The notes beneath the pieces are model-generated. The model was not told the DNA's origin. It saw only the letters and a list, made by a program, of their open reading frames with translations, and did no database searches. Made by a program: the position numbers and the translations under genes. Source: a virus. From it: a DNA stretch of 34,680 nt. Within the stretch, counting starts at the first letter, position 1, and the number at the start of each line of letters is the position of its first letter. The stretch is from positions 1 through 34,680 of IMG/VR virus record IMGVR_UViG_3300027980_000074; one strand, 5' to 3'. Below are positions 3,157 to 32,192 of this stretch, one piece after another.

Positions 3157-3158
3157 TC

Positions 3159-9246: not shown

Positions 9247-10761
9247 ATGACTATAACTTTTAAAGATGTTCCGGCCAATGCAAGAGCTTCGAAAAACTTT
9301 GTTGAGCTTGCTGGCACAAAAAGATCATTGGGAAGTTTATTTATTCCTGCAACTGGTGGCGTTATCGGCCAATACGATCCTGCAAAAACCAGTGTTGTAG
9401 ATTATGCAAGAGTAAAAATGCAAAACTCGGATGATTTTGGAAGTCAATTTGGTTTCGGATCACATATACATCGGATGTCTTTGAATTTACCTGATGCTGT
9501 TTTCTTGCAGGGTGGGGGCATATATGCTTTTCCAGTTCCTGAAGCAGGTGGTGCAACTGCAGCTGATCAAGATATTACTATTGTTGGTACCGTAACAAAA
9601 GCAGGTACACTATTTATTGATATAGGTGGTGAACTTATCCAAGTTGGTACTTCAATTGGTGATACTGAAACTGAGGTTGCAGCAGCAATAACAACTGCCA
9701 TCACAGCAAAAAGAGATGTTGCGGTAACTTCAACTTCAGCTCTTGGTGTTGCATCAACTGTAGCAAAATTCAAGGGAACTGCAGGAAATCAGATATTGAT
9801 TAAAATCAATCCTGATGGTGAAACTCAAGAATCAAAAAATCCTGAAGGTATCACGGTTACTCTTGAAGAAACTGATGGTTTTCTTGCAGGTGGGGCAACT
9901 GATCCAAGTGTTGAAGAAGTATTTTTTGAAACTAATGGTGATGATAAGCTTGGTTCTGAATGGTATACAATGTTCAATGTACCTTTCACTGATCAAACTA
10001 ACATTGATTTTCAAGTTCAAAGCGCAGTGAATAGAAGTGATGCAGCAATTAACAGAATGTTTGCTAATATTGCAGGTTACTCAAAAGAAACTTATGCAGC
10101 AGCTTTGGCGCTACCTGAAAATACTAACTCAGAATGGTTTATTCCAATTTGGGATGACAGATATGAATCACCAGCTTTTGAACAATCTGCAGCTACCATG
10201 GGTAAAATGTTAGATTCTCAGAATGAAAATCCTGCATTGCCTTTTAAGACTCTTGAAGTTTCAGGTTCTTATGATGATACAGTTTCAGATAAGAATTATG
10301 CTCAAATTTCAGCACTTGTTGAAGCTGGCATGAGTTATATGTTAAGCGGAACTGGTAAATTAAGACTTGGTGACATTGTAACATCAAGACGGACCAATGA
10401 TTCTGGTGGTGATACTGAAGAATGGTTTTTCGCTCAACAGCTTTTTAACAGACAAGCAAAAGCGTATAGCATTGAACAATTATTCCTTGATGAAAAATAT
10501 CAAAGAGCAACTGTCATTAGTGATGCGGATGTTTCTTTCGTTGAAACTGCGATTGCACCTAAAGATGTTGTTTCAGATATTGAATTTTTAGTTACTTCTT
10601 TATGGGTTCCTTTTGGATGGACTAAGAATCAAAAAGAAGTTGTTGATTCAATAGCTGCAGAAATCGATGCAACATTCAATGGTAGAATCGATTCTGTTGT
10701 GACAGACGATCCTGCGGAAGCATTAAGAATTATAGCAACTAAATACGAATATTTATATTAG
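9247..10761 (+). CDS. Contractile tail sheath protein (Mu gpL-like)
   Basis: The 504-residue protein carries the Mu-type sheath pattern 'ITIVGTVTKAGTLFIDIGGE...GDTETEVAAAITTAI' (about residues 112-170), a barrel found in gpL relatives, then a central SEWYTMFNVPFTDQTNI region and the conserved C-terminal contraction domain with NRQAKAYSIEQLFLDEKY and VTSLWVPFGWTKNQ. It would polymerise around the tail tube and contract on infection, which places this phage in the myovirus morphotype. An AGGAGG site (9236-9241) precedes the ATG. The tube gene follows after 13 bases. Confidence 0.9.
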   Translation: MTITFKDVPANARASKNFVELAGTKRSLGSLFIPATGGVIGQYDPAKTSVVDYARVKMQNSDDFGSQFGFGSHIHRMSLNLPDAVFLQGGGIYAFPVPEAGGATAADQDITIVGTVTKAGTLFIDIGGELIQVGTSIGDTETEVAAAITTAITAKRDVAVTSTSALGVASTVAKFKGTAGNQILIKINPDGETQESKNPEGITVTLEETDGFLAGGATDPSVEEVFFETNGDDKLGSEWYTMFNVPFTDQTNIDFQVQSAVNRSDAAINRMFANIAGYSKETYAAALALPENTNSEWFIPIWDDRYESPAFEQSAATMGKMLDSQNENPALPFKTLEVSGSYDDTVSDKNYAQISALVEAGMSYMLSGTGKLRLGDIVTSRRTNDSGGDTEEWFFAQQLFNRQAKAYSIEQLFLDEKYQRATVISDADVSFVETAIAPKDVVSDIEFLVTSLWVPFGWTKNQKEVVDSIAAEIDATFNGRIDSVVTDDPAEALRIIATKYEYLY

Positions 10762-11186: not shown

Positions 11187-11678
11187 ATGGAAAATAATTT
11201 AATTGATAAGGCAAAAGAAAAGTTCAAAGGCAAACAATCAAAAGAGATTACTGAAGTAGAAGCATATGAAATAATTGATGGATGGGGTGAAGATCTTGAG
11301 GTAAGATTGAATCAAGAAGATTTTGAAGCAGTTCAGAAAGAAGTATGGAAAGCAGTTTCAAAAGAAAGATTATTATATGATAATAATAGAGAGATTTTCA
11401 CCTATGTACTTAAAAAGCCTATAGAATTTCTAGATGGTTCAGGAAGAATTTCTATAATTGAAATACATGAATCTGATATGCAGTCAAAAAAGAAAATGTC
11501 AAAATTCAAAGATGATATAGATAAGGCTGCTGCATTACTTCAGGCTCACTGCAAAATGCAAGATGGATCTGAAATTGAACACGGATTTTTAACAAGAATA
11601 AAAGATAGAGACAGTGCAATTATAATGGCGGTTATACTTGGTTTTTTCGTTCAAGCAGTTCCAGAATCAAGGCAGTAG
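11187..11678 (+). CDS. Tail assembly chaperone, upstream frame (gpG/Mu gp41-like)
   Basis: The 163-residue acidic, helical protein lies between tube and tape-measure genes, the invariant position of the tail assembly chaperone. It would coat the tape-measure protein during tail assembly and is absent from virions. Near its C-terminus the codons GGT TTT TTC (11640-11648) form a -1 slippery heptamer, nine codons before its TAG stop. Some ribosomes would shift there and make a longer fusion. The start has AAAGG about 9 bases upstream. Confidence 0.85.
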   Translation: MENNLIDKAKEKFKGKQSKEITEVEAYEIIDGWGEDLEVRLNQEDFEAVQKEVWKAVSKERLLYDNNREIFTYVLKKPIEFLDGSGRISIIEIHESDMQSKKKMSKFKDDIDKAAALLQAHCKMQDGSEIEHGFLTRIKDRDSAIIMAVILGFFVQAVPESRQ

Positions 11679-11953
11679 GGGGGCTTGATTTTTCTGCTGA
11701 GTTTGAAGTTGTGGGACTGCTTGCAAAATATTTTAGTGGGGGGTTTTCGATACCTCATCAAATGACATTGACGTTCAAAGAGGTTTTCTTTTGGTTTGAA
11801 AATTATGAATTACAAGCCACTGAAGATGAAATTATTGAAGAATTAAGATACGACAAAGATGGTAAAGTCAAAGACCTACCATCAACAGAAACAATAAGAA
11901 AAAAGACCTTGAAGAGAATGAAAGAAAGGAGAGAAAAACTAAATGCCATCTAA
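11187..11953 (+). CDS. Frameshifted tail chaperone fusion (G-T type, -1 at 11642-11648)
   Basis: Reading frame 0 from 11187 and slipping -1 on T TTT TTC (11642-11648) joins the upstream chaperone to the frame that runs to 11953. After GFF the fused product continues RSSSSRIKAVGGLDFSAEFE, then VVGLLAKYFSGGFS and a charged helical tail ending KERREKLNAI. The second frame is open through the whole junction and has no convincing start of its own (only a GTG at 11711 without a ribosome binding site), which argues for frameshift expression. The T part would recruit tube subunits, the G part the tape measure, as in lambda. The product overlaps the tape-measure ATG by 11 bases. Confidence 0.8.
11642..11648 (+). 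promoter_or_regulatory. -1 programmed ribosomal frameshift site (T TTT TTC)
   Basis: The heptamer fits X XXY YYZ in the correct phase: the zero-frame codons are TTT TTC, and the shifted codons are TTT TTT. It lies 27 bases before the zero-frame stop TAG. Just downstream, TCAAGCAG (11651-11658) can pair with CTGCTGA (11694-11700) with one bulge, but that helix starts too close to the site to be sure it acts as a stimulator. A run of six G follows the TAG. Confidence 0.75.
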
Positions 11954-13814
11954 AACTAGATTTTCAATTGAAGGTGTAGTCTCATTGGTACAGAAAGTAA
12001 CAATGCCAATGAAACAAGCTACAAAAGCCGTCACTGGTTTTTCTCGAAAAATGAGAAATCAATTCAGGCTTGCTGATATGTCAGCTCAAAAAATAAATAG
12101 ATCCATCAATAGAATTGGTGCACCAGCTGCAAAGGCTGGTCTTGCTGCGTTGGGGGTCGGTGTTGCGGTCGTAGGTAAACAATTCGTTGAGTTCGATGAT
12201 GCTATTTTTGCAGCAACGGCCCGTTTTAAGGCTGCAGAAAAACCAGGCACTGACATGACTAAGGTCATGGAGAACTTGAGAAAAGAAGCTCGTAAGATGG
12301 GTGCAACAACTCAATTTTCAGCAGTTTTAATGGCTCAAGGTTTGGATAAGTTCGCTTTAGCGGGCTTTACTTCTAAAGAAGCTATTATGTCATTGAAAAC
12401 TCAGGTTGATCTTGCTACAGTAACAGGTGAAGATTTCATGCGTGTTGCTGATATATCATCTGACTTACTCGGTGCATTTGGGGGGTCTGCTCTTGATAGC
12501 ACTGCAAAAATAGCCAAACTGAAGGAAATGAATTCACTCCTTGCCGTTGCTACATTATCAGCTAACGTAACAATGGAAGATCTATTTGAAACATTAAAAC
12601 AAGCGGCTCCAATTGGCACAATGCTTGGAAAATCAATGGCTGATGTTATTGCAACCACATCAGTGTTAGGTTCTGCGGGCATAAAGGGATCAATGGCAGC
12701 AACCGCAATGAAAAATATTTTCTTAAGATTGGTTAAACCAACTGAAGACGTAAATGAAGCATTAAGACAAATGAATTTAAAACAAAAAGATTTTGTTACA
12801 AAGTCTGGAAAGATGAAATCAACTGTAGAAATTTTCAAACTAATAAATCAACAAACAAAAAAATTCAGTGATGTAAAAGTTGCTAGATTATTTGCAGCTC
12901 TTGCAGGGCTAAGAGGAACAGCCGGAGCAGCTGTAATTGCTAAAAATGTTGGTGAAATCAGAAAACAACTTATAAAAATGGGTAAAGATCCTCAAAAAGT
13001 CATGGCCCAAACTGCTGCCTTTATGCGTCAATCGATGGGAAATAGAATCAAGGCTTTAGGTTCTGCATTTACTGAATTAGGTTTCAAAATATTTTCTGCT
13101 TTTGCTGGTGACGGTAAAAAGGGAATTGATAAAATGACAAAATCTATTCTCAAATTTGATGTTAAACCAATCATAGCACTGTTGAAAGTTTTGGTGGGAG
13201 TTTTCAAAGTCTTTGGATCAGTACTTATGTTTTTAGCTCCATTCATGAATTTAATAATAGCTTCATTTGTTGGATTTAAAGTTGCAATGTTGGTTGCATC
13301 GGTGGCAGCTGGTATTTTTGGAGTTACATTAAATTTTGCTGTACTTGGTCCGATAATGTTAATAATTGGAGTTATAACATTTTTGGCTTTAGTTATAGTT
13401 AAAAATTGGGATTTTATAAAACAAGTAACATTCCAAGTTTGGGGAAATATAAAAAGATTCTTTGGTGAAGTTCTTGATGGAATGAAGATAGGAATGTTTA
13501 CTTTTGTAGATATGTTTATGACTACATGGGGAAATCTATTTAAATTTATTCTTATGGGGTATTCAAAAGTCAAAGGTGCTTTGGGTGGTGACACCACAAC
13601 AGTTGATGCAATGATAACCAAGGTCAGTAAAATTCAAGCTGATGTTAGGGCTAAATCTGCTTTTGCTTCACCAAATAGTCGAGGACAAAACGGTACTACT
13701 AATAAAACAGAGGGCACATTAAATCTGAATGTACAAACTCCTGCAGGTAGCAAAACAGATACCTCAACAAGTGGTGTCATAGATCCTTTTACATTAAACT
13801 TAGGTGAGGGTTGA
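11943..13814 (+). CDS. Tail tape measure protein (TP901 core type)
   Basis: The 623-residue protein carries the TP901-type tape-measure core: FVEFDDAIFAATARFKA (about residue 76), then LRKEARKMGATTQFSAVLMAQG, LALAGFTSKEA-like and VDLATVTGEDFMRVADISSDLLGAFG, followed by SANVTMEDLFETLKQAAPIGTMLG and the IKGSMAATAMKNIFLRL segment. Residues about 420-500 are strongly hydrophobic, with several membrane-length segments that could insert into the host membrane on DNA delivery. At roughly 1.5 angstrom per residue it predicts a tail near 90 nm. It begins inside the end of the chaperone fusion gene, so the two are coupled. Confidence 0.92.
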   Translation: MPSKTRFSIEGVVSLVQKVTMPMKQATKAVTGFSRKMRNQFRLADMSAQKINRSINRIGAPAAKAGLAALGVGVAVVGKQFVEFDDAIFAATARFKAAEKPGTDMTKVMENLRKEARKMGATTQFSAVLMAQGLDKFALAGFTSKEAIMSLKTQVDLATVTGEDFMRVADISSDLLGAFGGSALDSTAKIAKLKEMNSLLAVATLSANVTMEDLFETLKQAAPIGTMLGKSMADVIATTSVLGSAGIKGSMAATAMKNIFLRLVKPTEDVNEALRQMNLKQKDFVTKSGKMKSTVEIFKLINQQTKKFSDVKVARLFAALAGLRGTAGAAVIAKNVGEIRKQLIKMGKDPQKVMAQTAAFMRQSMGNRIKALGSAFTELGFKIFSAFAGDGKKGIDKMTKSILKFDVKPIIALLKVLVGVFKVFGSVLMFLAPFMNLIIASFVGFKVAMLVASVAAGIFGVTLNFAVLGPIMLIIGVITFLALVIVKNWDFIKQVTFQVWGNIKRFFGEVLDGMKIGMFTFVDMFMTTWGNLFKFILMGYSKVKGALGGDTTTVDAMITKVSKIQADVRAKSAFASPNSRGQNGTTNKTEGTLNLNVQTPAGSKTDTSTSGVIDPFTLNLGEG

Positions 13815-13817
13815 TAA

Positions 13818-15086
13818 ATGTCATATCTAGACAGAATGAGACCTAATGCATCTTTTATAGATCCAAATGGTACAGAGCATTTTTTCAATGTTGACACGCT
13901 CACTCGTACCGGTAGCAAAAAGGGATCTACTCAGGAAATACTTGATAGTGTTGAGAGTAGAAGTCAAGATCAGGGAAACAAAGCCACCACATTCAATATG
14001 TCAGCTTATTTCACTGGTCAGGATTATGACATACCCACTGATGCATTTTATAAGGCTCTTGAATTGCAATATACAATTGATAAGCCAGGGATTTTAAAAC
14101 ATCCACGATGGGGTAATATCAATGTTTTTCCTTTGGGTGATTTCCCTCAAACAGAGGAGCTGATTTCCGGTGCTATGGTTGGTCGTATTGATATTACATT
14201 TACAAAAGTTTTTAATAGATCTTTTCCAGAAACAACAGGTGGCTCTTTATCCACAGCACTCACAAATATTGATGAGATTGAAGAAATCAGTGATGAAATA
14301 GCAGAGGGTATTGATGTTTCAAATACAAAACTTGAAACTAGCATACAGGCAAAATTGCAAAATGCAGTTGGTATAATTTCTAATAGTTTAAGTGAGATAA
14401 CAAAACAAGTTAAAGCCGTTCAAGATGAATTTACAGCTATTCAAGATGCTATAAATAATACAATTGATGATGTCGCAGGAAATATCATTGAACTTATTTC
14501 TCAGACTCAACAACTTATACGACTACCTGCCAAAATAGTACAGTCATTTGAAGATAAAATCAATGGTTATGCCAGCATGATTGAAACTCTTTGTGATAAT
14601 TTCAATGATCCTAATGAGGTATCACAGGCAAATAGAAAAAACAACGCTCTCATGATGGAGTTATTTTCTGGTTACGGTGTTGCGGTTTTATCTGAAAGCA
14701 CTTCTTTTGCTGATTATTCAATAAGATCTCAGGCCATATCATCAACAGAAATTATAAATGATAGTCTTGATTTTTTTACAGATTCATTCAATGAGGCACG
14801 AGCCTATGGTTTAGCAGATGAAGAATTTTCAGGAACTCATAATTTATGGTCTTTGATGTTTGACACCACTGCAAGAATTAAAGAATTATTATTACTTCAG
14901 GCTTTTGACTTGAAAGCAGAAAAAAGAATTATTTTGAATAATAATATTGACATAGTTAATCTTTGTTATGAACTATATGGAAACATTCAAGAAGAAACAT
15001 TACAATTTTTTATTCTAACAAATGGATTTAATAATGATGATTTTTATGAACTTTCAGCAGGGACAGAGATTGTAAGTTATGCCTAA
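13818..15086 (+). CDS. Tail/baseplate hub protein, DNA-circularisation family (Mu gpN-like)
   Basis: The N-terminal ~140 residues match the DNA_circ_N family in pattern: ASFIDPNGTEHFFNVD, then GNKATTFNMSAYFTGQDYD, FYKALELQY, GILKHPRWGNINVFPL and a closing VGRIDITFTKVF strand. The family name is historical; Mu gpN is now regarded as a tail/baseplate hub component that connects tube and baseplate. Residues about 150-230 form a coiled-coil-like helical region, and the rest is helical. The gene lies between tape measure and gpP-like hub as in Mu, and overlaps the next gene by 8 bases. Confidence 0.85.
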   Translation: MSYLDRMRPNASFIDPNGTEHFFNVDTLTRTGSKKGSTQEILDSVESRSQDQGNKATTFNMSAYFTGQDYDIPTDAFYKALELQYTIDKPGILKHPRWGNINVFPLGDFPQTEELISGAMVGRIDITFTKVFNRSFPETTGGSLSTALTNIDEIEEISDEIAEGIDVSNTKLETSIQAKLQNAVGIISNSLSEITKQVKAVQDEFTAIQDAINNTIDDVAGNIIELISQTQQLIRLPAKIVQSFEDKINGYASMIETLCDNFNDPNEVSQANRKNNALMMELFSGYGVAVLSESTSFADYSIRSQAISSTEIINDSLDFFTDSFNEARAYGLADEEFSGTHNLWSLMFDTTARIKELLLLQAFDLKAEKRIILNNNIDIVNLCYELYGNIQEETLQFFILTNGFNNDDFYELSAGTEIVSYA

Positions 15087-16398
15087 TTACCTAAAATTTG
15101 AAACCAGAAATAAACTCTTTGAAACAATAGTTCAAAAAGATACTAAAAAACGTCCTATTCCCGGGACTAATTATGTAGTTCCAAAGGGAGGTTTTCTTGA
15201 TACAATATCACTCAAAGCTTATGGATATAATCGTGTATCTGATATTGAAAAAGCAAATGAAGAATTATTAAAAAGTAGGAATAGAATACAGGGTATAAAA
15301 AACGTTTATCCTGGTGATGTAATATGGCTACCACCTGGACTTGCAAGGGAAGTAACACCAGAACAAATTGATTCAGATTCACCAGATGAAATAGCAATTA
15401 GAATCAATGGTAAAATTTTCAAAGGTTATACAGCTTCGAATATAAATAGGTCGTTAAATTCTGTTGCGGATGGGTTCTCTTTTACTGCTCCATTTAATCC
15501 AGATGATCCAGATAGTGTATATCTTGATCCACATACTTTTTTACCAGCCGATATTTTTATTGGTGGTGAACTTTATATTTCTGGTAGATGCGAAAAATGG
15601 GACCCTGCTTTTGATGAAAATTCAACAAGTACAAATATTCAAGTCAGGTCTTTGGCCGGTGTATTGGTTGATTGTGTTTCAGAGGATAAACAAAGGAATT
15701 ATATTAGTCAATCACTCAGTCAAATAACAAATAAACTTCTTAATCCATTTGGTATAAAGTCAATATATCCAGATGGTGACGGTGGTATAATTGATAAATC
15801 AAAAAGAAATCCTGGGGATAAAATTTATTCTTTTCTTCAGGGACTTGCTAAGATAAAGGGATATATAATAAATTCAACTGTTGACGGTGGCATTTCCTAT
15901 GATAGAGCCAATATAAAAGGGAAACCAATATTTCAACTTAAACAGGGAAATTGGCCTTTGTTAAGTGCAAAGCCTTCATATGATGGGACTAAAAGATTTT
16001 CACAATTTACAGCAATAGCGCAAGGCAAAAAAAATGTTGTGATAAGATCTTCAGTTGTCGATAAATCAGTGCCGGTAAAAAGACCAACTGTTATTGATGC
16101 AAAATATTCAAGTAAGGGAAATGTGAAAGAGGCTGCAGAATGGGCAAGATCAAGATCGCTATCGAGTTCATCACCTTGCACTGTAACGGTTGCAACATGG
16201 CGTGATGATAATGGCGATTTAATAAAAGAAAACAATATAGTTACTCTTTTATGTCCTAATGTTTCGGTATATAGAGAAACAAGATATTTAATAGAAAAAG
16301 TACAATTAGCTCAAGATGGTAAAACTGCTCAATTGACTTTGGTTTTACCAGAGGCTTATACTTTAGAATTTCCAGAGGTTTTCCCATGGCAGAGATAG
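15079..16398 (+). CDS. Baseplate hub (Mu gpP/gp44-like) with N-terminal LysM-like domain
   Basis: The 439-residue protein starts with a LysM-like segment (about residues 30-90): VPKGGFLDTISLKAYGYN, then KNVYPGDVIWLPPG, the 'xGDxLxxIAxxxYG ... PGxxLxIP' pattern seen in tail protein X/LAMB-LysM domains. The remaining ~340 residues follow the gp27/gpD hub plan, with INGKIFKGYTASNINRSLN as the first hub barrel, FIGGELYISGRCEKW as the second and a C-terminal VTVATWRDDNGDL...YLIEKVQL barrel. It would be the trimeric hub that holds the spike. Mu keeps these functions without a LysM fusion as far as I recall. It overlaps the previous gene by 8 bases. Confidence 0.85.
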   Translation: MPNYLKFETRNKLFETIVQKDTKKRPIPGTNYVVPKGGFLDTISLKAYGYNRVSDIEKANEELLKSRNRIQGIKNVYPGDVIWLPPGLAREVTPEQIDSDSPDEIAIRINGKIFKGYTASNINRSLNSVADGFSFTAPFNPDDPDSVYLDPHTFLPADIFIGGELYISGRCEKWDPAFDENSTSTNIQVRSLAGVLVDCVSEDKQRNYISQSLSQITNKLLNPFGIKSIYPDGDGGIIDKSKRNPGDKIYSFLQGLAKIKGYIINSTVDGGISYDRANIKGKPIFQLKQGNWPLLSAKPSYDGTKRFSQFTAIAQGKKNVVIRSSVVDKSVPVKRPTVIDAKYSSKGNVKEAAEWARSRSLSSSSPCTVTVATWRDDNGDLIKENNIVTLLCPNVSVYRETRYLIEKVQLAQDGKTAQLTLVLPEAYTLEFPEVFPWQR

Positions 16399-16402
16399 TA
16401 TT

Positions 16403-16897
16403 ATGATTGAGATAGTAACCATAGAAAATGCCAAAGTCAAAGACAACGGAATTGAATCAGATGTTGAGGGTTTTGGTGGCACTGAGGATGATACTAATAT
16501 TTTTGGTATTACTGGTGTAAAATCTTTACCTCATGATGGTGAAACAGGTGTCATGATTGATGCCAAAGGTGAAAATTATGTTGTTGGCACTAATAATTAT
16601 AATATAAATATTACTCTTGACAAAGGGGAAATAGTTATTTACTCTTCAGATTCTAGTGGAAATATATTGAGTAATGCTAGATGTAATAAAGATGGTGAGT
16701 TTGTTGTAAATGATGGTGATCGTTCGGCGGTTGCTTTTGATAAATTGAAAGAGGGCTTTGATCAATTTGTTTCAGATTATAATGCTGAATTGATTGAAAT
16801 ACAGGCAGGAATAACAAGTGCAGGGGGGGTGTATACTCCGACTTCGACAACTGCTAATGTTGATGGTTCTGAAGTAGATGAGGTGAAATTACCATGA
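16403..16897 (+). CDS. Baseplate puncturing spike protein (Mu gp45-like)
   Basis: The 164-residue product follows the hub gene and has the gp45/gpV layout: an OB-like N-terminal part with GETGVMIDAKGENYVVG, a KGEIVIYSSDSSGNILSNA strand set, then a helix DKLKEGFDQFVSDYNAELIEIQAG and a polar end. Mu gp45 and P2 gpV form the trimeric needle that pierces the outer membrane. I see no C-terminal His-x-His iron site in this short version. Its stop overlaps the start of a 53-aa gene by ATGA (16894-16897). Confidence 0.82.
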   Translation: MIEIVTIENAKVKDNGIESDVEGFGGTEDDTNIFGITGVKSLPHDGETGVMIDAKGENYVVGTNNYNINITLDKGEIVIYSSDSSGNILSNARCNKDGEFVVNDGDRSAVAFDKLKEGFDQFVSDYNAELIEIQAGITSAGGVYTPTSTTANVDGSEVDEVKLP

Positions 16898-17055
16898 GAT
16901 ATAAATTTGTAAGTCTTAGAATTGAAGTAGTCAATGGCTTTAGATTTTTTCTAGTTAAGAATTTTTCTTTTAAAAATGGTAAAGGAAACGAAACTAATCA
17001 AGCATGTATTCAAGTTACTTTTATAGTGATATCAATTTTATGGATTTCTAAATAA
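16894..17055 (+). CDS. 53-residue basic/hydrophobic protein between spike and gp46, unknown
   Basis: An ORF too short for usual cut-offs opens at ATG 16894, overlapping the spike stop (ATGA), and closes with TAA at 17053-17055, overlapping the gp46 ATG (TAATG). Both junctions are the tight couplings used through this block, which argues strongly that it is translated. The product starts MRYKFVSLRIEVVNGF, has a basic middle and ends with a hydrophobic stretch (about 39-51, IQVTFIVISILW) able to span or lie on a membrane. Mu has no gene at this place. I do not recognise it; a baseplate assembly or lysis-related role would be a guess. Confidence 0.6.
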   Translation: MRYKFVSLRIEVVNGFRFFLVKNFSFKNGKGNETNQACIQVTFIVISILWISK

Positions 17056-17495
17056 TGGCAACATACACAGGTGACATACTAATAGTTCAACTCGATGACG
17101 GGACCTTTGATTGGTTCTTTGAAAACGGTCAACCGTACATGACAGATGGACTTGAAACTATAACTCTTCTCGCTGTGTTTGGTGAAGATTACTATGGTAA
17201 TGACCTTGTAAGAACTGAATCTGAAAAAATGAAATCGGCATTTCCTGAAGTCATAAGAAGAAATACAGTGAGTGATGAAACCGTTAATGATGGAACTGAA
17301 GCAATAAAAGGTGCTTTAGATTTTTTCACATCTGAGAAAATAGCAAAATCTGTGACTGTTGAAGGTGAGATATTTTCTGTACATGGTATTGCATGGCAAA
17401 TAACAATAGAATCATTGACAGATGAAACATTGAGATATTTTATAAACTGGGAACTTGGGAAACTGAGATTTCAACAAGAATCAGCAAGGAGATAA
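17055..17495 (+). CDS. Baseplate protein gp46 family (Mu gp46-like)
   Basis: The 146-residue protein lies between spike and baseplate J genes as Mu gp46 does. Family-like features are the N-terminal ILIVQLDDGTFDWFFENGQ strand pair, the aromatic segment LLAVFGEDYYGND, and the C-terminal domain with SEKIAKSVTVEGEI...WQITIESL strands, which corresponds to the gp25-like wedge fold. It would join baseplate wedges to the sheath start. It is coupled upstream by TAATG and ends 3 bases before the next gene. Confidence 0.83.
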   Translation: MATYTGDILIVQLDDGTFDWFFENGQPYMTDGLETITLLAVFGEDYYGNDLVRTESEKMKSAFPEVIRRNTVSDETVNDGTEAIKGALDFFTSEKIAKSVTVEGEIFSVHGIAWQITIESLTDETLRYFINWELGKLRFQQESARR

Positions 17496-17498
17496 TTT

Positions 17499-18638
17499 AT
17501 GGCAATTCCTGATATACCGTCAATTGAAGAAATAAAAAATAGAATAGTATCAGATGTTACAGATAGTATAAATCAAGTTGTACCATCGTTTTTCATTTCA
17601 TTTGTAAGGGTTCTTGCCTCTGCAATTGCCTCAATGCACTACCTCACATATCAAGCAATTCTTTGGGTGTATAAGCAAATTTTTCCATCTTCAGCAGATT
17701 ACTTCAATCTTATTCTTTTAGGTAGGATTGTTGATGTAACACCAAAAGAGGCCACCAATGCAATAATATTGTGTACGGTGCCAGGTTCAGGAAGTGAAGT
17801 AACTCAGGGAACTACTTTTATTTATACAAATGATGTAACCTACAGAGTTGAGACAACTACTTTAATAGTCAGTGGTGAAGCTTTAAACGTTCCTATGAGA
17901 GCTTTGACATCTGGGGGTATTGGAAATGTTGCTGATGGTGAAATTCTCAATCTTACATCATCCACACTCGGACTTGATGGGACTGCAGAAGTTACAAGTA
18001 CAGATACCAGTGGAGCCGATGAAGAAAGTGAAGATTCTTTTGCTGCTCGTGTATCATTAAGATATAGAATAAAATTTATTGCCGGTACTCCAGGTGGTTA
18101 TGCTCTTTATGGACTTGAGACACCTAATTTCACATGGGTTGGACCTTATGCGGATGAGGATATACATAAACAAGTTAATATATATGGTCGTGTTGATAAT
18201 CAAACTGATGGAATACCAACAAGCTCACAGCTTGCAGAACTTGAGGAATATTGTTCTTTTGATCAAGAAACAGGAAAAGAAATAAGAAGAGCGATTGGAG
18301 ACGAATTAAACACCCTTGCAATATCAAGACGTGTATTTGATCTTGAGATTTTTATCAATAATTCTAACAGTGGAATAAATGCAGAAATTGAAAGTGCAGA
18401 AAATGACTTTATAGATACTCTTGAACCTTTTATACAGGGGGTTTCTTCAGTTAGAAGAGATGTTTTAACAAATACTGATACTGCCGGTGTTGCTGATGAT
18501 GTAGCAGAGAGAAACGGTGCGAAGGTTACTCAGGTTGTTATTACCGATACTGTGACAGGACTCACTGAAACTAATTACAGTTTTTACGGTGGTGAGTTTG
18601 GAAAATGGGGAACTATTACTTTTACGGTGGTATTGTAG
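17499..18638 (+). CDS. Baseplate J-like wedge protein (Mu gp47-like)
   Basis: The 379-residue product shows the baseplate J pattern: an N-terminal helical region that ends with HYLTYQAILWVYKQIFPSSAD, then GSEVTQGTTFIYTNDVTYRVETT, the characteristic VPMRALTSGGIGNVADGEIL segment, and 'DEESEDSFAARVSLRYRIK...GTPGGYALYGLE' (about residues 180-205), in which the family has 'E.dea.R.R.......p..gt..ay...a'. It would form the wedge arms that rearrange at infection. The start has AAGGAG about 8 bases upstream. The gp48 homolog follows after 3 bases. Confidence 0.9.
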   Translation: MAIPDIPSIEEIKNRIVSDVTDSINQVVPSFFISFVRVLASAIASMHYLTYQAILWVYKQIFPSSADYFNLILLGRIVDVTPKEATNAIILCTVPGSGSEVTQGTTFIYTNDVTYRVETTTLIVSGEALNVPMRALTSGGIGNVADGEILNLTSSTLGLDGTAEVTSTDTSGADEESEDSFAARVSLRYRIKFIAGTPGGYALYGLETPNFTWVGPYADEDIHKQVNIYGRVDNQTDGIPTSSQLAELEEYCSFDQETGKEIRRAIGDELNTLAISRRVFDLEIFINNSNSGINAEIESAENDFIDTLEPFIQGVSSVRRDVLTNTDTAGVADDVAERNGAKVTQVVITDTVTGLTETNYSFYGGEFGKWGTITFTVVL

Positions 18639-18641
18639 AAT

Positions 18642-19415
18642 ATGATACAATCAATTAAAAATACACTAATCAGATTATCAGGTAAAATATATTTATTCAA
18701 TCCTATAAAATGGTATCCTGAATTTATAGAGGGAATATCAAAAGAATTTGCTAGAGTTAGGGATTATAAAAATAATGTTTTATCAGCTACAGTTGTAAAT
18801 GACAATATGACACCTGATGCTATTGATGATCATAATAAAAAATATGGTATTCCTTCAAGTTTAACCGGCTCTGATGCCGAAAAAATATCAAGACTCATTG
18901 AAAAGGCTGATCCTTCAGGCTGGCCTGGCCCAGATTACATGGAAGAACAACTGGCTCAAGCTGGTTATGATTTATATGTTCATGAAAATTCACCACAAAC
19001 AACAAATGTTAGACAGTATGGCAATGATCAATATTCACCTGTTATTCAATATGGACTAACTCAGAGATATTTAGATCCTGATGATTTCCCTGGTTATTTA
19101 TGTGTAGGTTCACCACCTTCAGGAGAAGGAAGAATTTATCTTTCTCAGTATTCGACATCTAATCAATATGGTAATTTTCAATATGGTACACCAGATCCAA
19201 ATGCATTAAATCCACAACCGAAGCTATATGAAATTACTGATGATCCACAATGGTGGGGATTTTATTTTGTTCTATCGCCTTTCGAGGATAGATTAGCAGT
19301 TGATGAAAGTGAATTTTTAGAAGTACCAGAAAATCAGATTGACTATTTATGTGATCTAATTGTATCATTGAAACATACTACAATGAGAGCTATTGTGCAA
19401 GCAAAAAGTGTATAA
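18642..19415 (+). CDS. Baseplate/tail protein of the gp48/gpI family (DUF2313-like)
   Basis: The 257-residue protein follows baseplate J, as Mu gp48 does. The segment MTPDAIDDHNKKYGIP...SRLIEKADPSGWPGPDYMEEQLAQAGYDLYVHE (about residues 47-110) has the family's 'E..lGl......s...R...v......~s...~...~la..G....' pattern, and the end has two aromatic-rich repeats with QYGxxQY. The C-terminal ECD...WWGFYFVLSPFED segment leads into a helix DYLCDLIVSLKHTTMRA, common in this family. It would connect the wedge to tail fibres. Ribosome binding for the start is weak, so it may be coupled to the upstream gene. Confidence 0.8.
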   Translation: MIQSIKNTLIRLSGKIYLFNPIKWYPEFIEGISKEFARVRDYKNNVLSATVVNDNMTPDAIDDHNKKYGIPSSLTGSDAEKISRLIEKADPSGWPGPDYMEEQLAQAGYDLYVHENSPQTTNVRQYGNDQYSPVIQYGLTQRYLDPDDFPGYLCVGSPPSGEGRIYLSQYSTSNQYGNFQYGTPDPNALNPQPKLYEITDDPQWWGFYFVLSPFEDRLAVDESEFLEVPENQIDYLCDLIVSLKHTTMRAIVQAKSV

Positions 19416-19449
19416 GATAGATATAATGAAATATAAGGAGAAAAAATAA

Positions 19450-20481
19450 ATGAAAGAATTAGCTAGTTATCTGACAAATTTAGAAACAGCATCGGCAGGT
19501 TTTTCACTTGGGAAAATGAAAGATGATAGTGGGGCAAGTGATGGTACTGGTATTACCGTATTGACCCACAATGATTTTTACTATGCTTTTGAATCTGGAA
19601 TACTGAAATATCTTGGTGCTATGAGTGATGCGGACGAAAGTGAAACCGCATCTGATAACCTTGATGCTATGGAAACAATGACAGGTGTAAAAAATCCTAA
19701 TGTTTCAGAATATGATAATTCAACTGCATATGTTCAAGACGATCATGTCATGTATTTGGGTTCTCAGTATGTTTTGATGGATGTTTCTGGTAGTACAGGG
19801 AATAATCCTATTGATAGTCCTGATTTATGGTTACCTTGTTTTAATCGTGATGAAGCTTTAAGAAATTGGAGAGAAGGTCTCAATATTTCTGGTGGTTTTT
19901 CAGCACTTCATGACAAGAGAGATGTTACTAATTATAGAATGATCTTTGGGGATGGTAAATATAATTATGGCGGTGATGCAGGCAGAAACCTATCTTTTAC
20001 AGGATTACATCTTGATGGAACTCAGGTCACAGGTAATGCAACTCTTGAGGCTTTACTTGATGTTGGTGGTGGTGATGAATATCATCTGTTAGATGTTATT
20101 GCTCCTGATGTATTAGGCACTAGAACATTGATAGAAACACTTGCAAGAGTTGGACGTGTGGTTGATGACACTGCTGGATTGACTGAGGATGTTGGAGTTG
20201 TTCAAGAAGATGCGATGCAGAGAATTACAGGCGAGATAGCCACTGTTTTAGGGTCAAACGATTCACCTATTGATGTTAGTGGCTCGGTTAGTGGTGTCTA
20301 TTCAATAGGTTCAACAGTTTTACCTAATAGAGCAGGTCAGGTATCAGGTAATGGTAGAAATTTATTATTTGATTCAGCAAATTCAACATCTCCAAACACA
20401 GCAAAAACAAATGATGAGGAGACAACCATGGCTAACTATACTAAAGGTGTGGACTGGATTTTAATTATGCAAGAGATATAA
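19450..20481 (+). CDS. Tail fibre protein with carbohydrate-binding-like insert
   Basis: This 343-residue protein is the last late gene, where Mu-type phages carry the fibre. An N-terminal part (about 1-75) would bind the baseplate. Residues about 85-125 read SEYDNSTAYVQDDHVMYLGS and DSPDLWLPC, which resembles the short chitin-binding/CBM5-type domain (Y-xx-G/STAY-x-x-x-D-x-V-x-x-x-G-x-xY). The last 40 residues, with ANYTKGVDWILIMQEI after a Asp-Glu-Glu-Thr run, match the common fibre end 'R.~N~T.p.N.~~.~~I~~'. The role is host recognition. A clear AAGGAG precedes the start and an intrinsic terminator follows. Confidence 0.78.
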   Translation: MKELASYLTNLETASAGFSLGKMKDDSGASDGTGITVLTHNDFYYAFESGILKYLGAMSDADESETASDNLDAMETMTGVKNPNVSEYDNSTAYVQDDHVMYLGSQYVLMDVSGSTGNNPIDSPDLWLPCFNRDEALRNWREGLNISGGFSALHDKRDVTNYRMIFGDGKYNYGGDAGRNLSFTGLHLDGTQVTGNATLEALLDVGGGDEYHLLDVIAPDVLGTRTLIETLARVGRVVDDTAGLTEDVGVVQEDAMQRITGEIATVLGSNDSPIDVSGSVSGVYSIGSTVLPNRAGQVSGNGRNLLFDSANSTSPNTAKTNDEETTMANYTKGVDWILIMQEI

Positions 20482-20505
20482 AAAAATTAAATACGCATAT
20501 TAAAG

Positions 20506-20537
20506 AAAAAGCCTCTAAAATTATTAGAGGCTTTTTT
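20506..20537. terminator. Bidirectional intrinsic terminator between convergent blocks
   Basis: GCCTCTAA (20511-20518) pairs with TTAGAGGC (20524-20531) across a 5-nt loop; the stem is flanked by AAAAA (20506-20510) and TTTTTT (20532-20537), so it works for transcripts from either side. It lies in the 84-bp gap between the tail fibre stop and the stop of the convergent lipoprotein gene. Confidence 0.92.
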
Positions 20538-20565
20538 GTATTCAACTTTTATTTGTACTGACTTT

Positions 20566-21930
20566 CTACAATTTCCACATTTCACCTTTACTTGTCAAAA
20601 CAGTCATTGTAGCGGATTCAGTTGATTTAACAAAATACAACCCTGAATTCCTAACAATAGAATCATCATCAACAACAACATGAAATAATCCATAAAAAGT
20701 ATTATGATATCCTCTATAATAATCAGTAATCAAAACATTTCTTGGTCCAAAACCTATTGACATTATTACAATATCACTAACAATATAAGGATCATAAAAA
20801 TCTGTAGTTATCTGAAAATCTGCATGATCAAGTGTAACTCTGTTCTTAACAGGCTTTGCAAGCATTTGAGCTTGTGTGATTACATCAACAGCACTTCCAG
20901 ATTGTTTGACATAAATTATTTCACTATCAACAAGAGCTGAATAATATATAACACCATCAACAGTATAAAAAGATTGAAAACTTACTGAAACTGTATTATC
21001 TGAAAAACCACTTTGGGTAATAAGGCAATCAATTGAAACATTTTCCATAGATTTTGAAGTAGAATTTAATCCTTTGATATATCCGGTTGCAGTTTCATAG
21101 AAAAAATCATATCCTGTTATTTGATCAGGTGTGTATATTTTTGGGGCTGGTCCGGTAATACTTCTAAATAAAAGCAATGCAGCTTTAACACTTGAAAGTG
21201 ATGGAGTAGAACCATATTTATTAGTCATATTGATTTCAATTTGAGGTACATCAAGATCATAGAAATCATTATCAATCATTGATACATCAATAGTGCCATC
21301 TTCAAGATCTGTTGAGAGAGTAGTTAGCAAATTAGAAATTTCTGAAACGGTGCGACCTTTACATATTGCAGCTGATAATAATAACAGTTCTGCATTATTT
21401 GCAACTGATTGAGTTCCAGGATCAATAGTGGTCCAATCAAAATTAGAGAATAATTCTGTAATTGATTGATTAACTGAAGTATCATAATCTGAGCCTGATT
21501 CAATTAGAAACATAACTCTTTTTTGTATGATATGAGTAAGTACGTTTATATTCCATGGTGTTTTGGTACTATCGACCATACCATATAATTTAAGTGTAGA
21601 ATCAGAAATTAGACCAGTATTCTCATTATAAAAATATCCTTCAGCTTTTACATAAAGAATGTCTTTTATTTTTGTACTCTTGAGTGTGTAATTTCCGAGA
21701 TCATCATTTGTAACAGTTGCGAATGATTCACCAGTGAAACCGGTCACAGGGTCCCAACCGTATGCAATAATCTCAGCACCTTGTTGAAATGCACCCTTTT
21801 CTAGTTTACCAGTGAATGTTTTTTCTGATGGTGATGGGGTTGATGGTGTGTCATCACATGAGACTGTGAACATGAGACTTATTGTCAATATGATAATTGA
21901 CAATAGTAGATTGAATTTAATTTTTTTCAT
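20566..21930 (-). CDS. Chimeric surface lipoprotein with a C-terminal domain paralogous to the adjacent gene
   Basis: The 454-residue product has a signal peptide and lipobox FTVSC ending at Cys25, then Asp-Asp and a Thr/Pro/Ser linker. Residues about 35-250 resemble, from memory, a bacterial lipoprotein family with 'GxFxxGxxIxxYxWDPxTG', 'DDLGNYTL', 'VKAEGYFYNENTG' and 'INVLTHIIQKRVMFLIESGSDY' motifs. Residues about 270-454 align along the whole length of the 186-residue neighbour (shared DGxxYY/F strands, DF/Y-VSDI, GP-xxx-L, and the end GL-x-F ... GE-x-W). It has its own AAGGAG and a promoter at 21959-21986. A phage-encoded lipoprotein could alter the host surface or block superinfection. 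That is inference. Confidence 0.85.
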   Translation of the reverse strand: MKKIKFNLLLSIIILTISLMFTVSCDDTPSTPSPSEKTFTGKLEKGAFQQGAEIIAYGWDPVTGFTGESFATVTNDDLGNYTLKSTKIKDILYVKAEGYFYNENTGLISDSTLKLYGMVDSTKTPWNINVLTHIIQKRVMFLIESGSDYDTSVNQSITELFSNFDWTTIDPGTQSVANNAELLLLSAAICKGRTVSEISNLLTTLSTDLEDGTIDVSMIDNDFYDLDVPQIEINMTNKYGSTPSLSSVKAALLLFRSITGPAPKIYTPDQITGYDFFYETATGYIKGLNSTSKSMENVSIDCLITQSGFSDNTVSVSFQSFYTVDGVIYYSALVDSEIIYVKQSGSAVDVITQAQMLAKPVKNRVTLDHADFQITTDFYDPYIVSDIVIMSIGFGPRNVLITDYYRGYHNTFYGLFHVVVDDDSIVRNSGLYFVKSTESATMTVLTSKGEMWKL

Positions 21931-21958
21931 TACCTTCTCCTTTAAAGTTTGTATTTAT

Positions 21959-21986
21959 AATATAACTATAAACTGTTAAGTTGTAA
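21959..21986 (-). promoter_or_regulatory. Predicted promoter of the lipoprotein gene
   Basis: On the minus strand TTACAA (21986-21981) and TATATT (21964-21959) are spaced 16 bp. The box is embedded in ACAACTTAACAGTTT, which repeats ACAACTTAATAGTTT of the early promoter/operator at 33746-33767 with one change. The gene would therefore share a regulator with the early operon. The left half of the operator palindrome is less complete here. Confidence 0.5.
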
Positions 21987-22002
21987 GTTTATATGTATTT
22001 AT

Positions 22003-22563
22003 TTACCAGATTTCACCCTCTGGAAGTTTAACATAATTATAGCCAACTGATTCAACTGGCCAAAATGCAAGACCTGGTTTTCTAACCTTTGGACGGCCTT
22101 TTTTAATGTTGAAATATAACCCGATACCAGTGAAATATGAATATCCGTTTACGAGTAGGAATCTTTCAGGACCAGTTTTTACAGAAGTTATGTTGTTCAC
22201 ATCACTGCACATTTGACCTTGATAATCAAAATCTTTTATTGAAAATTCAGGATTACTGAGTGATGATCTTTGCAATTCTGGTTTTGTTGGTAGTGATGCA
22301 ACTTTATTAACAGCATCATTTTTATCTTGTTTGTAGAAAACTGTTTTTGTTGCTAGTATTTCTGGATCAGTGTTATCAACTTCTTGAGTAGTGAAATAGA
22401 GATCTTTACCGATTGCAAAGAAATCTGTGAGCATGAGTGGTTCACCATCTTGATCGATTATATCAAGTGATGGAGTTACATTTCCCTCAGTAAATCCATA
22501 GATCTTTTTTTGACCTGATGATGTGAAGTAATAATTTTGACATCTTGGTATTGATTTAAGCAT
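22003..22563 (-). CDS. Soluble paralog of the lipoprotein C-terminal domain, unknown function
   Basis: The 186-residue protein has no signal peptide. Its full length aligns with residues about 270-454 of the downstream lipoprotein: GKDLYFTTQ against DGVIYYSAL, TVFYKQDKNDAVNKV against IIYVKQSGSAVDVI, SIKDFDY against QITTDFY, GPERFLLV against GPRNVLIT, and GLAFWPVES...GEIW against GLYFVKSTES...GEMW. The DG-xx-YY ... IYK strand pattern resembles propeller-like repeats, but no count can be made. AAAGGAG precedes the ATG. It could be a virion or tail-tip component, an immunity partner of the lipoprotein, or simply its ancestor. Confidence 0.8.
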   Translation of the reverse strand: MLKSIPRCQNYYFTSSGQKKIYGFTEGNVTPSLDIIDQDGEPLMLTDFFAIGKDLYFTTQEVDNTDPEILATKTVFYKQDKNDAVNKVASLPTKPELQRSSLSNPEFSIKDFDYQGQMCSDVNNITSVKTGPERFLLVNGYSYFTGIGLYFNIKKGRPKVRKPGLAFWPVESVGYNYVKLPEGEIW

Positions 22564-22579: not shown

Positions 22580-22801
22580 TTATTTTGGTTGAAAAAATCT
22601 TTTATTATGGTCTAAGTGTTGTGTTCCTAACGGATTATCTTGACCATATGTATTAGAAATTTTTTCTTTTATTGATTCTATTTTGTCTTTTGCTAATTTA
22701 ATTGTTGTTCCACAGAAAGGACAATATCTTATATCGCAAAATCCGTTTTCACCAACATTGTAAGAAATATCAAAAGTTTTATTGCATGCTAAACATTTCA
22801 T
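22580..22801 (-). CDS. Small zinc-ribbon protein
   Basis: The 73-residue protein has CLACNKTF at the N-terminus and CPFCGTTI about 25 residues later, i.e. two CxxC knuckles of a typical zinc ribbon, and a charged helical remainder. Its ATG overlaps the stop of the RecT-like gene (ATGA at 22798-22801), so it is translated with the recombination genes. It may bind nucleic acid or protein; no specific function can be read. Confidence 0.72.
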   Translation of the reverse strand: MKCLACNKTFDISYNVGENGFCDIRYCPFCGTTIKLAKDKIESIKEKISNTYGQDNPLGTQHLDHNKRFFQPK

Positions 22802-24033
22802 AATTCTTTAATCTCCTTATCTTCATTAAACAACCCACCTTCATTTTTATCAACTTCTTTTTCTTCGACAGGTTCTTTTTCTTTAATGATCTCAGCATCT
22901 TTTATTGGTGGCTCTTTAGTTTCAAACTGACCTTTAGCGACATTCAGAACATGGTCTGCAGCCTGATCCATAGTTGAATCATCTGTTATGCTGTTGTCAT
23001 CACTCCACTCTTCAGCCATGGCAGAGGCATTTCTAACTTTCATATAAGGTCTAAAAAATGACTTTCCTGCTGCCTTTCTAAGCATTTCCGGTCTGTCTGG
23101 TCCATCATATGGATTGACTAAATCATGTTCATATATTTTCTTTGACCATGTGCCGCCGTCTCTTTTATCAAAAACTTTTTCAAAATATTTATGACCATTT
23201 TTATCTTCTTTTAGATTTCCCTCAGATTTTATTCTGTTGAATTGTTCAACATCAAGAATATAATTTTTATAACTTGGTGAATGTTGAGCTGCTTTTTCAA
23301 GTAGTCTTTTAACATCATATGCCTCACCAATATATTTACCGGTGTCATTTCTTTTTGCTCTAACTATCATTCCTGCCAACTCACCTCTTGGTAGGATTAT
23401 TTTAAAGTCTGCATGAAAACTACCATCTTTTTGATATATATCTATATCGGTATCATTTTCATATATAGGTTTTATTTCTATATCACTGAATGGTGGATTT
23501 TTGCCTTTACTCATAGCATTTTCGTAACACTCAACAGATGCAATAAATTCACAGCCATTTCCAAAGGGGACTAAATCACCCATTTCTCCAAGAATAGCAC
23601 CATAATAAAGAGCCTCTGAAAATCCATGTGTAATTGACTCTTGACCTTCATCAGTATTCCACACTTTATCCCATGCTTTCCCTGAAAGATTAGAAACATA
23701 TCTAACATTTTTTTCAATCATTCTTTGTGTTGCAGGCTTGTCAATGAATTGTGCCGATTGATTCATTAGAGCAATCATGTTATTTTGTGACCACGTTATG
23801 AGTGCGGTTCGGTCGTTTGGGATTTTTGCAAGTTGGGTTGATTGTGAAAGAGTGGTATTTATTTCTGACATTTTCTTTTCATCAGTCATAGTATGATTTT
23901 TAAAATAATCCTCAACGATTTTTTTATTGTAATCTTTCCATTTCAATCCACAAACTCCACATTCAGCATAAAACATGGTTTTGCCTTTGGAATTACCAGA
24001 TTTAATTTCTAGTGGTTTGTTGCAATGTTTCAT
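22798..24033 (-). CDS. RecT-like single-strand annealing protein with N-terminal Cys motif
   Basis: The 411-residue protein has an N-terminal HC...CGVCG motif (residues 3-29) suggesting a metal ribbon, then a RecT-like core: EALYYGAILGEMGDLVPFGN-type segment (about 142-162) followed by CEFIASVECYENAM, IKPIYENDTDIDIY, ELAGMIVRAKRND and RPEMLRKAAGKSFFRPYMK, which parallel the RecT 'liP~k......c..~i.y.g~~.~a', 'vye.D', 'g~~~~~~' and 'e~~~KTv~R~~~k' features. The acidic tail is disordered. It would pair DNA ends made by the exonuclease encoded upstream at 25348-26631. In-frame Met49 and Met55 lack good ribosome binding sites. ERF or another annealing family remains possible. Confidence 0.65.
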   Translation of the reverse strand: MKHCNKPLEIKSGNSKGKTMFYAECGVCGLKWKDYNKKIVEDYFKNHTMTDEKKMSEINTTLSQSTQLAKIPNDRTALITWSQNNMIALMNQSAQFIDKPATQRMIEKNVRYVSNLSGKAWDKVWNTDEGQESITHGFSEALYYGAILGEMGDLVPFGNGCEFIASVECYENAMSKGKNPPFSDIEIKPIYENDTDIDIYQKDGSFHADFKIILPRGELAGMIVRAKRNDTGKYIGEAYDVKRLLEKAAQHSPSYKNYILDVEQFNRIKSEGNLKEDKNGHKYFEKVFDKRDGGTWSKKIYEHDLVNPYDGPDRPEMLRKAAGKSFFRPYMKVRNASAMAEEWSDDNSITDDSTMDQAADHVLNVAKGQFETKEPPIKDAEIIKEKEPVEEKEVDKNEGGLFNEDKEIKEL

Positions 24034-31397: not shown

Positions 31398-31985
31398 TTA
31401 TTTAATAATAAATCCATAACTATATTTATAGCCATTATCTTTCTGTAAAAATATTTTCCAGTCATACTCTATATTATTACCATTTCGATCTTTATAATTA
31501 GTATGTGCATTTCCAAAAGGATCTTTAGTGGTTACAGTTTCTTTTTCAGTGTCATATCCAACTACACAAGTATAATGACCTGAAACATAGCTGATTGGTG
31601 AGAAGTCACCCAAACATACAAGAGGATTATTGTTATCAATATTTTCTATAACTTTATCAAGAGTAATTCCCCATGAAAGTTCAATACCAGAATATATTTT
31701 TTTACAAACATATTCAAGGATAGGCAAAACTTGAAAACCTCTATTATTATCTACATACCATTTCCATGTAGAATTTCCGTTGATTATCCCATATGCTATA
31801 TCTTTGGGTAGATCAATGCATTGCTTTGTAATGTAGTCTTCAAGTTGATATCCTTCATATGGATCAACAACACCTTTGTAATGTAGCCCTATTGCGGTTG
31901 AGGTATCACCACATGTAATTGATGGATTGAATATATTATTTCTTTGGGTGAATGGTTCGACGTTTTCTATTTGATTTTTTATCAT
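31398..31985 (-). CDS. C39-like cysteine peptidase, endolysin candidate
   Basis: The 195-residue protein has the papain-like C39_2 pattern: Gln14 and Asn near FTQRNN, the nucleophile in TCGDTSTAIGLHYKG (Cys25), GHYTCVVGYD with His137, and KDPFGN with Asp155. It has no signal peptide. C39-like enzymes cut peptide bonds; in phages they can act as peptidoglycan endopeptidases or prophage toxins. No other endolysin is visible in the window and a small membrane protein follows, so a lysis role is attractive but unproven. A clear AAAAAGGAA site precedes the ATG. Structured, tRNA-like sequence lies just upstream. Confidence 0.72.
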   Translation of the reverse strand: MIKNQIENVEPFTQRNNIFNPSITCGDTSTAIGLHYKGVVDPYEGYQLEDYITKQCIDLPKDIAYGIINGNSTWKWYVDNNRGFQVLPILEYVCKKIYSGIELSWGITLDKVIENIDNNNPLVCLGDFSPISYVSGHYTCVVGYDTEKETVTTKDPFGNAHTNYKDRNGNNIEYDWKIFLQKDNGYKYSYGFIIK

Positions 31986-32117: not shown

Positions 32118-32192
32118 TGTCATAGGGCGGATTTGAACCACCGACTTCAGAACTTTTAGATTCTGTGCCTCTTCCTATTGGGCTACTATGAC
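32118..32192 (-). tRNA. tRNA with apparent 8-nt anticodon loop (identity unclear)
   Basis: The acceptor strands GTCATAG and CTATGAC pair over 7 bp with discriminator A; the D-arm reads GCC-CAATAGGAAGA-GGC after TA; the T-arm is GGTGG-TTCAAAT-CCGCC, a canonical T-loop. The anticodon stem CAGAA/TTCTG is perfect but encloses 8 nt, TCTAAAAG, instead of 7. Depending on which base is extra, the anticodon could be CTA, TAA or AAA, and none keeps both U33 and a normal stem. CCA is not encoded. It could be a frameshift-suppressor-like tRNA, a 6-bp stem with 6-nt loop, or a decayed gene. Confidence 0.7.

Follow-up and report, generated by a model that had tools for sequence, protein, structure and literature searches.

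A modular phage lipoprotein with a bacterial-type N-terminal domain, encoded next to a free paralog of its C-terminal region

Why should a phage encode a lipoprotein and, directly beside it, a free protein that resembles the C-terminal end of this lipoprotein? The question is raised by a 34.7-kb stretch of viral DNA that was analyzed over its full length (referred to as the window) and that represents a fragment of a contractile-tailed phage, as indicated by library matches to its ORFs. Both genes are located where the two arms of this fragment meet. Library matches assign portal, ClpP-like head protease, sheath, tape measure, baseplate hub, Baseplate_J, and baseplate wedge proteins to the plus-strand arm, and a replication/recombination array with a helicase, a RecE-like exonuclease, and a VRR-NUC nuclease to the minus-strand arm. 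A nearly identical sister contig (8.3 kb, 99.8%) extends the window leftward and encodes a 667-aa ORF matching phage large terminase subunits. No integrase was recognized among the genes scanned in the window or the sister contig, and the relatives of tail sheath and terminase are too weakly similar and too scattered for a host assignment. The features relevant to the locus, in window coordinates, are as follows:

17499-18638, plus strand: Baseplate_J protein (Pfam match)
18642-19415, plus strand: baseplate wedge relative, phrog_203 (PHROG match)
19450-20481, plus strand: 343-aa protein in tail-fiber position, after the baseplate genes
20506-20536, no strand assigned: terminator-like hairpin with a 13-pair stem, between the tail-fiber-position gene and the lipoprotein gene
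20566-21930, minus strand: lipoprotein, 454 aa (ORF; relative of 39% identity in an unrelated phage)
20569-20820, minus strand: lipoprotein tip, residues 371-454 (matches the tip of the free protein)
20821-21156, minus strand: middle part of the C-region, residues 259-370 (common to the lipoprotein of a 155-kb phage)
21157-21822, minus strand: N-domain, residues 37-258 (AlphaFold2 model, PgcA fold match, 76 bacterial homologs)
21856-21930, minus strand: signal peptide and lipobox with Cys25 (PROSITE-type lipobox)
21962-21998, minus strand: weak imperfect inverted repeat in the 72-nt gap, possible operator (13-nt arms, 85% complementary)
22003-22563, minus strand: free paralog, 186 aa, without signal peptide (ORF; BLASTP match to the lipoprotein C-terminus)
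22006-22254, minus strand: tip of the free protein, residues 104-186 (matches the lipoprotein tip)
22580-22801, minus strand: zinc-ribbon-like protein (weak Pfam zinc-ribbon matches, best E 0.001)
22798-24033, minus strand: 411-aa protein (ORF)

The original prediction, made from the letters of the window, had placed the pair face to face with a tail fiber gene. Indeed, the lipoprotein gene converges on the adjacent 343-aa gene of the opposite strand, with the hairpin between them. The stem of this hairpin is reported on the minus strand, and since its flanks are A/T-rich on both sides, it may act as a terminator for both strands. For the 343-aa protein, no significant match was obtained in Pfam, PHROG, or the phage collection; we infer its tail-fiber function from the position after the baseplate genes.

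Within the minus-strand array, the free-protein gene lies 72 nt upstream of the lipoprotein gene, and a Shine-Dalgarno-like AGGAG precedes the ATG of both. A gap of 16 nt separates the free paralog from the zinc-ribbon-like gene directly upstream, which in turn overlaps the gene of the 411-aa protein by 4 nt. Because of this tight spacing, the free protein is most simply understood as the end of the minus-strand array and not as a tail gene. At E below 0.1, the 411-aa protein matches neither a Pfam nor a PHROG family, and we take it, by eye only, to be RecT/Erf-like. Among the PADLOC models, the zinc-ribbon-like protein weakly matches the candidate-defence model PDC-M14A (E=1e-4).

The lipoprotein gene had also been credited with a regulated promoter of its own, a claim that we do not retain. 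Its -35/-10 candidate scores 9/12, and 52 such sites were found where 42 ± 7 are expected by chance; the inverted repeat is matched or beaten by 23 of 300 shuffles. Neither the promoter nor the operator candidate thus rises above chance. A recent arrival of the lipoprotein gene was rejected as well, as its codon usage is the same as that of other phage genes.

As predicted, the lipoprotein carries a signal peptide and a lipobox (LMFTVS-C25), while its neighbor has neither: no lipobox and no hydrophobic N-terminus were found in the free protein. The +2 residue of the lipoprotein is Asp. In E. coli, Asp at this position retains lipoproteins in the inner membrane, a rule that is not general.

How closely are the two proteins related? 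The 186-aa protein had been proposed to align over its full length with the end of the lipoprotein. BLASTP aligns lipoprotein residues 333-452 with residues 70-186 of the free protein (E=1e-7, 26% identity), and none of 500 shuffles reaches their local score (z about 11). For the last ~84 residues of both proteins, the tips, the proposal holds directly (z 7.2), whereas the first half, lipoprotein 259-370 versus free protein 1-103, is not significant alone (z 1.1) and is connected only via a third sequence, the lipoprotein of the 155-kb phage, which links the middle parts with z 7.1 to the lipoprotein and z 4.9 to the free protein; on such short segments, all shuffle z-scores are indicative only. 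Judged from these alignments, the lipoprotein C-terminus and the 186-aa protein are homologous, and the lipoprotein is composed of three modules, namely the N-domain (37-258), the middle part, and the tip.

The N-domain is modeled by AlphaFold2 with pLDDT mostly above 90 over residues 37-258, as a beta-sandwich (37-128) combined with a helical bundle (130-258); one row of the underlying 69-row alignment (the free protein) was misplaced against the N-domain instead of the C-region, which should leave the N-domain result unaffected. By VIA-align, the model matches the non-heme domain of PgcA of Geobacter (PDB 9i0d) with Z 9.7, the next chain reaching 4.1; the superposition covers 155 residues of the 201-residue target with an rmsd of 4.2 and 12% identity. 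In PgcA as well, the fold belongs to a modular protein, there an extracellular one. PgcA, however, carries heme domains, and profile and phmmer searches gave no match between the two. As no sequence match supports it, we take the likeness to PgcA as one of fold, not of function. Pfam holds no entry for the N-domain.

Single-protein scans of phage and plasmid records, IMG/VR, and genome contigs revealed no relative of either protein, and the collections yielded no related phage that spans the locus. Relatives of the N-domain were found with a degenerate DNA pattern for its GYxxN...NxNxLT motifs, which was specific in the window. The pattern fixed one glycine codon (GGA; GGT only in viral contigs), so that the counts are lower bounds: at least 88 stretches in bacterial genomes and at least ten in viral contigs. 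At least 76 bacterial ORFs match the front of the lipoprotein (phmmer E about 1e-12 to 1e-29), which bears out the idea of a chimeric lipoprotein with the front of a bacterial surface lipoprotein. A lipobox precedes the N-domain in 62 of these 76 ORFs, and the window lipoprotein shares with them the columns of the motifs KG..., GYxxNE, and NxNxLTH of the ~220-residue domain. The C-terminal modules of the bacterial proteins, 36 of which were scanned, include SusD-type, TPR, Laminin_G, BACON, Ig, LRR, FGE-sulfatase, and Fib_succ_major.

On the taxonomic level, the N-domain is common in Fibrobacterota, where 62 of 168 genomes have it at E<=1e-15, and occurs there in multiple copies. With the thresholds applied to the other groups it is rarer: 3 of 395 genomes in Bacteroidota, 1 of 297 in the Desulfosudis phylum, 2 of 13 in Delongbacteria, and 3 of 245 in Fidelibacterota at E<=1e-18. 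Fibrobacterota contain large families of lipoproteins with this domain, many of them clustered; a single genome has 12 matches, ten of them on one contig.

The bacterial N-domain lipoproteins (Bacteroidota, Fibrobacterota, Fidelibacterota, Delongbacteria, and others) resemble the phage protein in their lipobox, in the N-domain built of beta-sandwich and helical part, and in a swappable C-terminal module. They differ in that none of their C-terminal modules is related to the phage C-region and in that the phage N-domains form a clade of their own. The full-length phage profile aligns with bacterial proteins over the N-domain only, to about position 250 of 456, and since the bacterial matches end there, the C-region is seen only in phages in the genomes searched. 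In the tree, the two phage N-domains constitute one clade on a long stem (support 100/100). Given this full support, they most likely derive from one source, which would be either a bacterial clade missing from the sampling or a lineage that has resided in phages for a long time.

A profile search of each half, proposed along with the original prediction, thus gave a divided outcome: the N-domain is found in several bacterial phyla, but for the C-region, searches of Pfam, PHROGs, NCBIfam, PADLOC, and the PDB yielded no relative. The PADLOC defence HMMs match neither the lipoprotein nor the free protein at E up to 1. AlphaFold2 models the lipoprotein C-region with pLDDT mostly below 50, its middle part being beta-rich in this low-confidence model, and the free protein, for lack of homologs, with pLDDT 33, too low for a comparison of the two folds; Foldseek found no confident match. 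Residues 314-354 gave VIA matches to blades of propellers and lectins (Z up to 3.9), which were set aside because the segment is too short to use. The tip was presumed to resemble the GYYxxGDGGG...GRWKR lead-in motif of tailspikes, a likeness that we rejected as no library match backs it.

The relative that links the middle parts is a lipoprotein of 456 aa encoded on two viral contigs, one of them the 155-kb phage record IMGVR_UViG_3300032397_000003. It aligns with residues 26-370 of the window lipoprotein by BLASTP (39% identity, E=1e-78) and with residues 25-370 by phmmer (E about 1e-75), the identity amounting to 52% in the beta-sandwich, 45% in the helical part of the N-domain, and 27% in the middle part. 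Between the tips, nothing exceeds chance (z -0.7), and the last 84 residues are unmatched. This protein also has a lipobox (FVA-C19). The 716-aa sheath of the 155-kb phage is unlike the window sheath and, among cultured phages, is best matched by large myophages of Erwinia and Escherichia; the genome is much larger, and this phage is not a close relative. No recognizable free copy of the tip protein was found in the 155-kb record, and the pair of lipoprotein and free protein is therefore not obligatory. A match of the 155-kb phage lipoprotein tail to a virion protein of Aeromonas phage ZPAH34 (E=0.3, 48 aa) was discarded as chance; this virion protein matches neither window protein.

Two observations concern the surroundings of the gene in the 155-kb phage. 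Directly before it, at 9512-9913 on the plus strand, lies the gene of a 133-aa protein in which a signal peptide is recognizable by eye and which has no PHROG match. Downstream, the ORF run 11564-21126 encodes, by eye, an RNA ligase, glycosyltransferases, a nucleotide-sugar dehydratase, FkbM-type methyltransferases, and a radical-SAM protein, and possibly constitutes a surface-glycan cassette.

What, then, could the pair do? That one form is anchored at the cell surface was part of the original prediction, and display is now better grounded, because in bacteria the N-domain is joined to SusD-like, lectin-like, and Ig-type modules; surface display is the best reading of the predicted N-domain lipoprotein. 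By analogy with known phage lipoproteins, we tentatively suggest, as the likeliest use of the pair though one that falls short of being probable, that the infected cell displays the tip, which occupies a phage receptor and excludes other phages. Host lipoprotein export would bring the phage tip to the outer membrane of the infected cell, either onto it or beneath it, where the tip would bind and occupy a surface component used by phages for adsorption. The occupied site would exclude later phages and keep progeny off infected cells and debris. A free copy with the same kind of tip would recognize the same ligand and, lacking an export signal, should leave the cell only at lysis, soluble or particle-bound. 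The tip is matched within one phage and not between phages, as would be expected if it sets a phage-specific target. In favor of receptor occupation we count the lipobox of both phage lipoproteins, the bacterial N-domain relatives with their lipoboxes and C-terminal modules, the C-region seen only in phages in the genomes searched, the separate clade of the phage N-domains, the recurrence of the lipoprotein in a phage whose sheath is unrelated and whose genome is much larger, the position beside the tail-fiber-position gene, and a tip common within the window next to a middle part common between phages. Against it we count the size of 454 aa, the Asp at +2, the C-region without known relative or usable fold model, and the non-obligatory pair.

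The known receptor-blocking lipoproteins are encoded directly downstream of the receptor-binding gene (PMC9586334). Llp of T5, Cor, and Rtp45, the latter of about 6 kDa (PMC12685063), are superinfection-exclusion lipoproteins of coliphages, encoded beside that gene, which stop further adsorption (PMC9586334; PMC12685063). Similar to these, the window lipoprotein gene lies beside a gene in tail-fiber position, here convergent and with a putative fiber function, an outer-membrane target is proposed (PMC9586334, PMC12685063), and a lipid anchor is predicted from the lipobox motif. In contrast, Llp, Rtp45, and Cor are very small (under about 100 aa), have neither the N-domain nor a described free paralog, and target FhuA or LptD from within the periplasm. 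The window lipoprotein is far larger and of different architecture and hence falls outside the Llp/Cor group. A looser likeness is given by Ltp of Streptococcus thermophilus phage TP-J34, in which an anchor and a spacer precede an active domain able to act unanchored; Ltp differs in its Gram-positive host, its length of 142 aa, and its architecture, with an active repeat domain that targets the tape measure protein (PMC3952083).

The main rival of receptor occupation is a surface moron whose displayed tip alters the binding properties of the infected cell, e.g., for glycan or nutrient capture or adhesion, without excluding phages, the free copy being a spare domain. It would fit the nutrient-binding (SusD) and lectin modules that bacterial proteins attach to the same N-domain, as well as the surface-chemistry neighborhood in the 155-kb phage, where the gene precedes glycosyltransferase-, epimerase/dehydratase-, and methyltransferase-like genes (by eye). 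We nevertheless regard it as somewhat unlikely: a lysogenic benefit is not obvious with no integrase recognized among the scanned genes, and the tip match to a cytoplasmic neighbor is left unexplained. The original prediction also considered the free copy as part of the virion. A free protein serving as virion adhesin, with the lipoprotein masking the receptor by presenting the same adhesin domain on the host, would agree with the common tip and with the location beside the tail-fiber-position gene. However, the free-protein gene closes the replication/recombination array (helicase, RecE-like exonuclease, VRR-NUC nuclease), while the structural genes are on the other strand, and no similarity of the free protein to any of the window's structural proteins was detected; a virion location has become less likely, and we consider the adhesin improbable. 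More doubtful still is a homotypic partnership, in which the free protein binds the lipoprotein tip by domain swap or co-oligomerization as cytoplasmic chaperone or neutralizing partner, with no external ligand; adjacent genes in one array, homologous domains, and the absence of a signal peptide in the free copy speak for it, the lipoprotein without recognizable free copy in the 155-kb record against it. That the free protein is the functionless leftover of a duplicated lipoprotein deprived of its front is equally hard to credit, since the low identity (26%) and the lost N-domain are opposed by an intact ORF, a good ribosome site, tight spacing with the upstream genes, and the codon usage of other phage genes.

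Receptor occupation may be extended to a reading of 'same tip, two carriers', by which a borrowed bacterial display module would be retained and would carry a phage tip that is exchanged from phage to phage, and the surface of the infected cell and the released material, with anchored and free copies of the tip, would compete for one host receptor. Taken as a whole, we hold this extension to be unlikely.

So far, receptor blocking by phage lipoproteins is known mainly from tiny proteins of coliphages. If receptor occupation is true, a large modular version would extend lipoprotein-based exclusion to uncultured phages of Bacteroidota, Fibrobacterota, and related phyla, and the N-domain together with a phage tip would provide a sequence handle for finding such proteins. 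As the tip is common to the free neighbor, the question of its ligand is directly testable.

Apart from the pair, three minor observations were made. On the sister contig, an ORF by eye similar to HNH-type homing endonucleases (2430-3218, minus strand) lies between the terminase gene and the pre-portal genes. The window contains a tRNA gene at 32118-32192 (minus strand; Rfam, 46.5 bits) with an anticodon that ARAGORN could not assign; its 8-nt anticodon loop by eye (UCUAAAAG) could hold CUA (amber) or UAA (Leu). A general recoding of TAG in the window is unlikely, because many of its genes end in TAG directly before the next gene. Finally, the replication array includes a Peptidase_C39-like protein (31398-31985, minus strand; E=2.5e-11), which also has a weak match to an endolysin PHROG.
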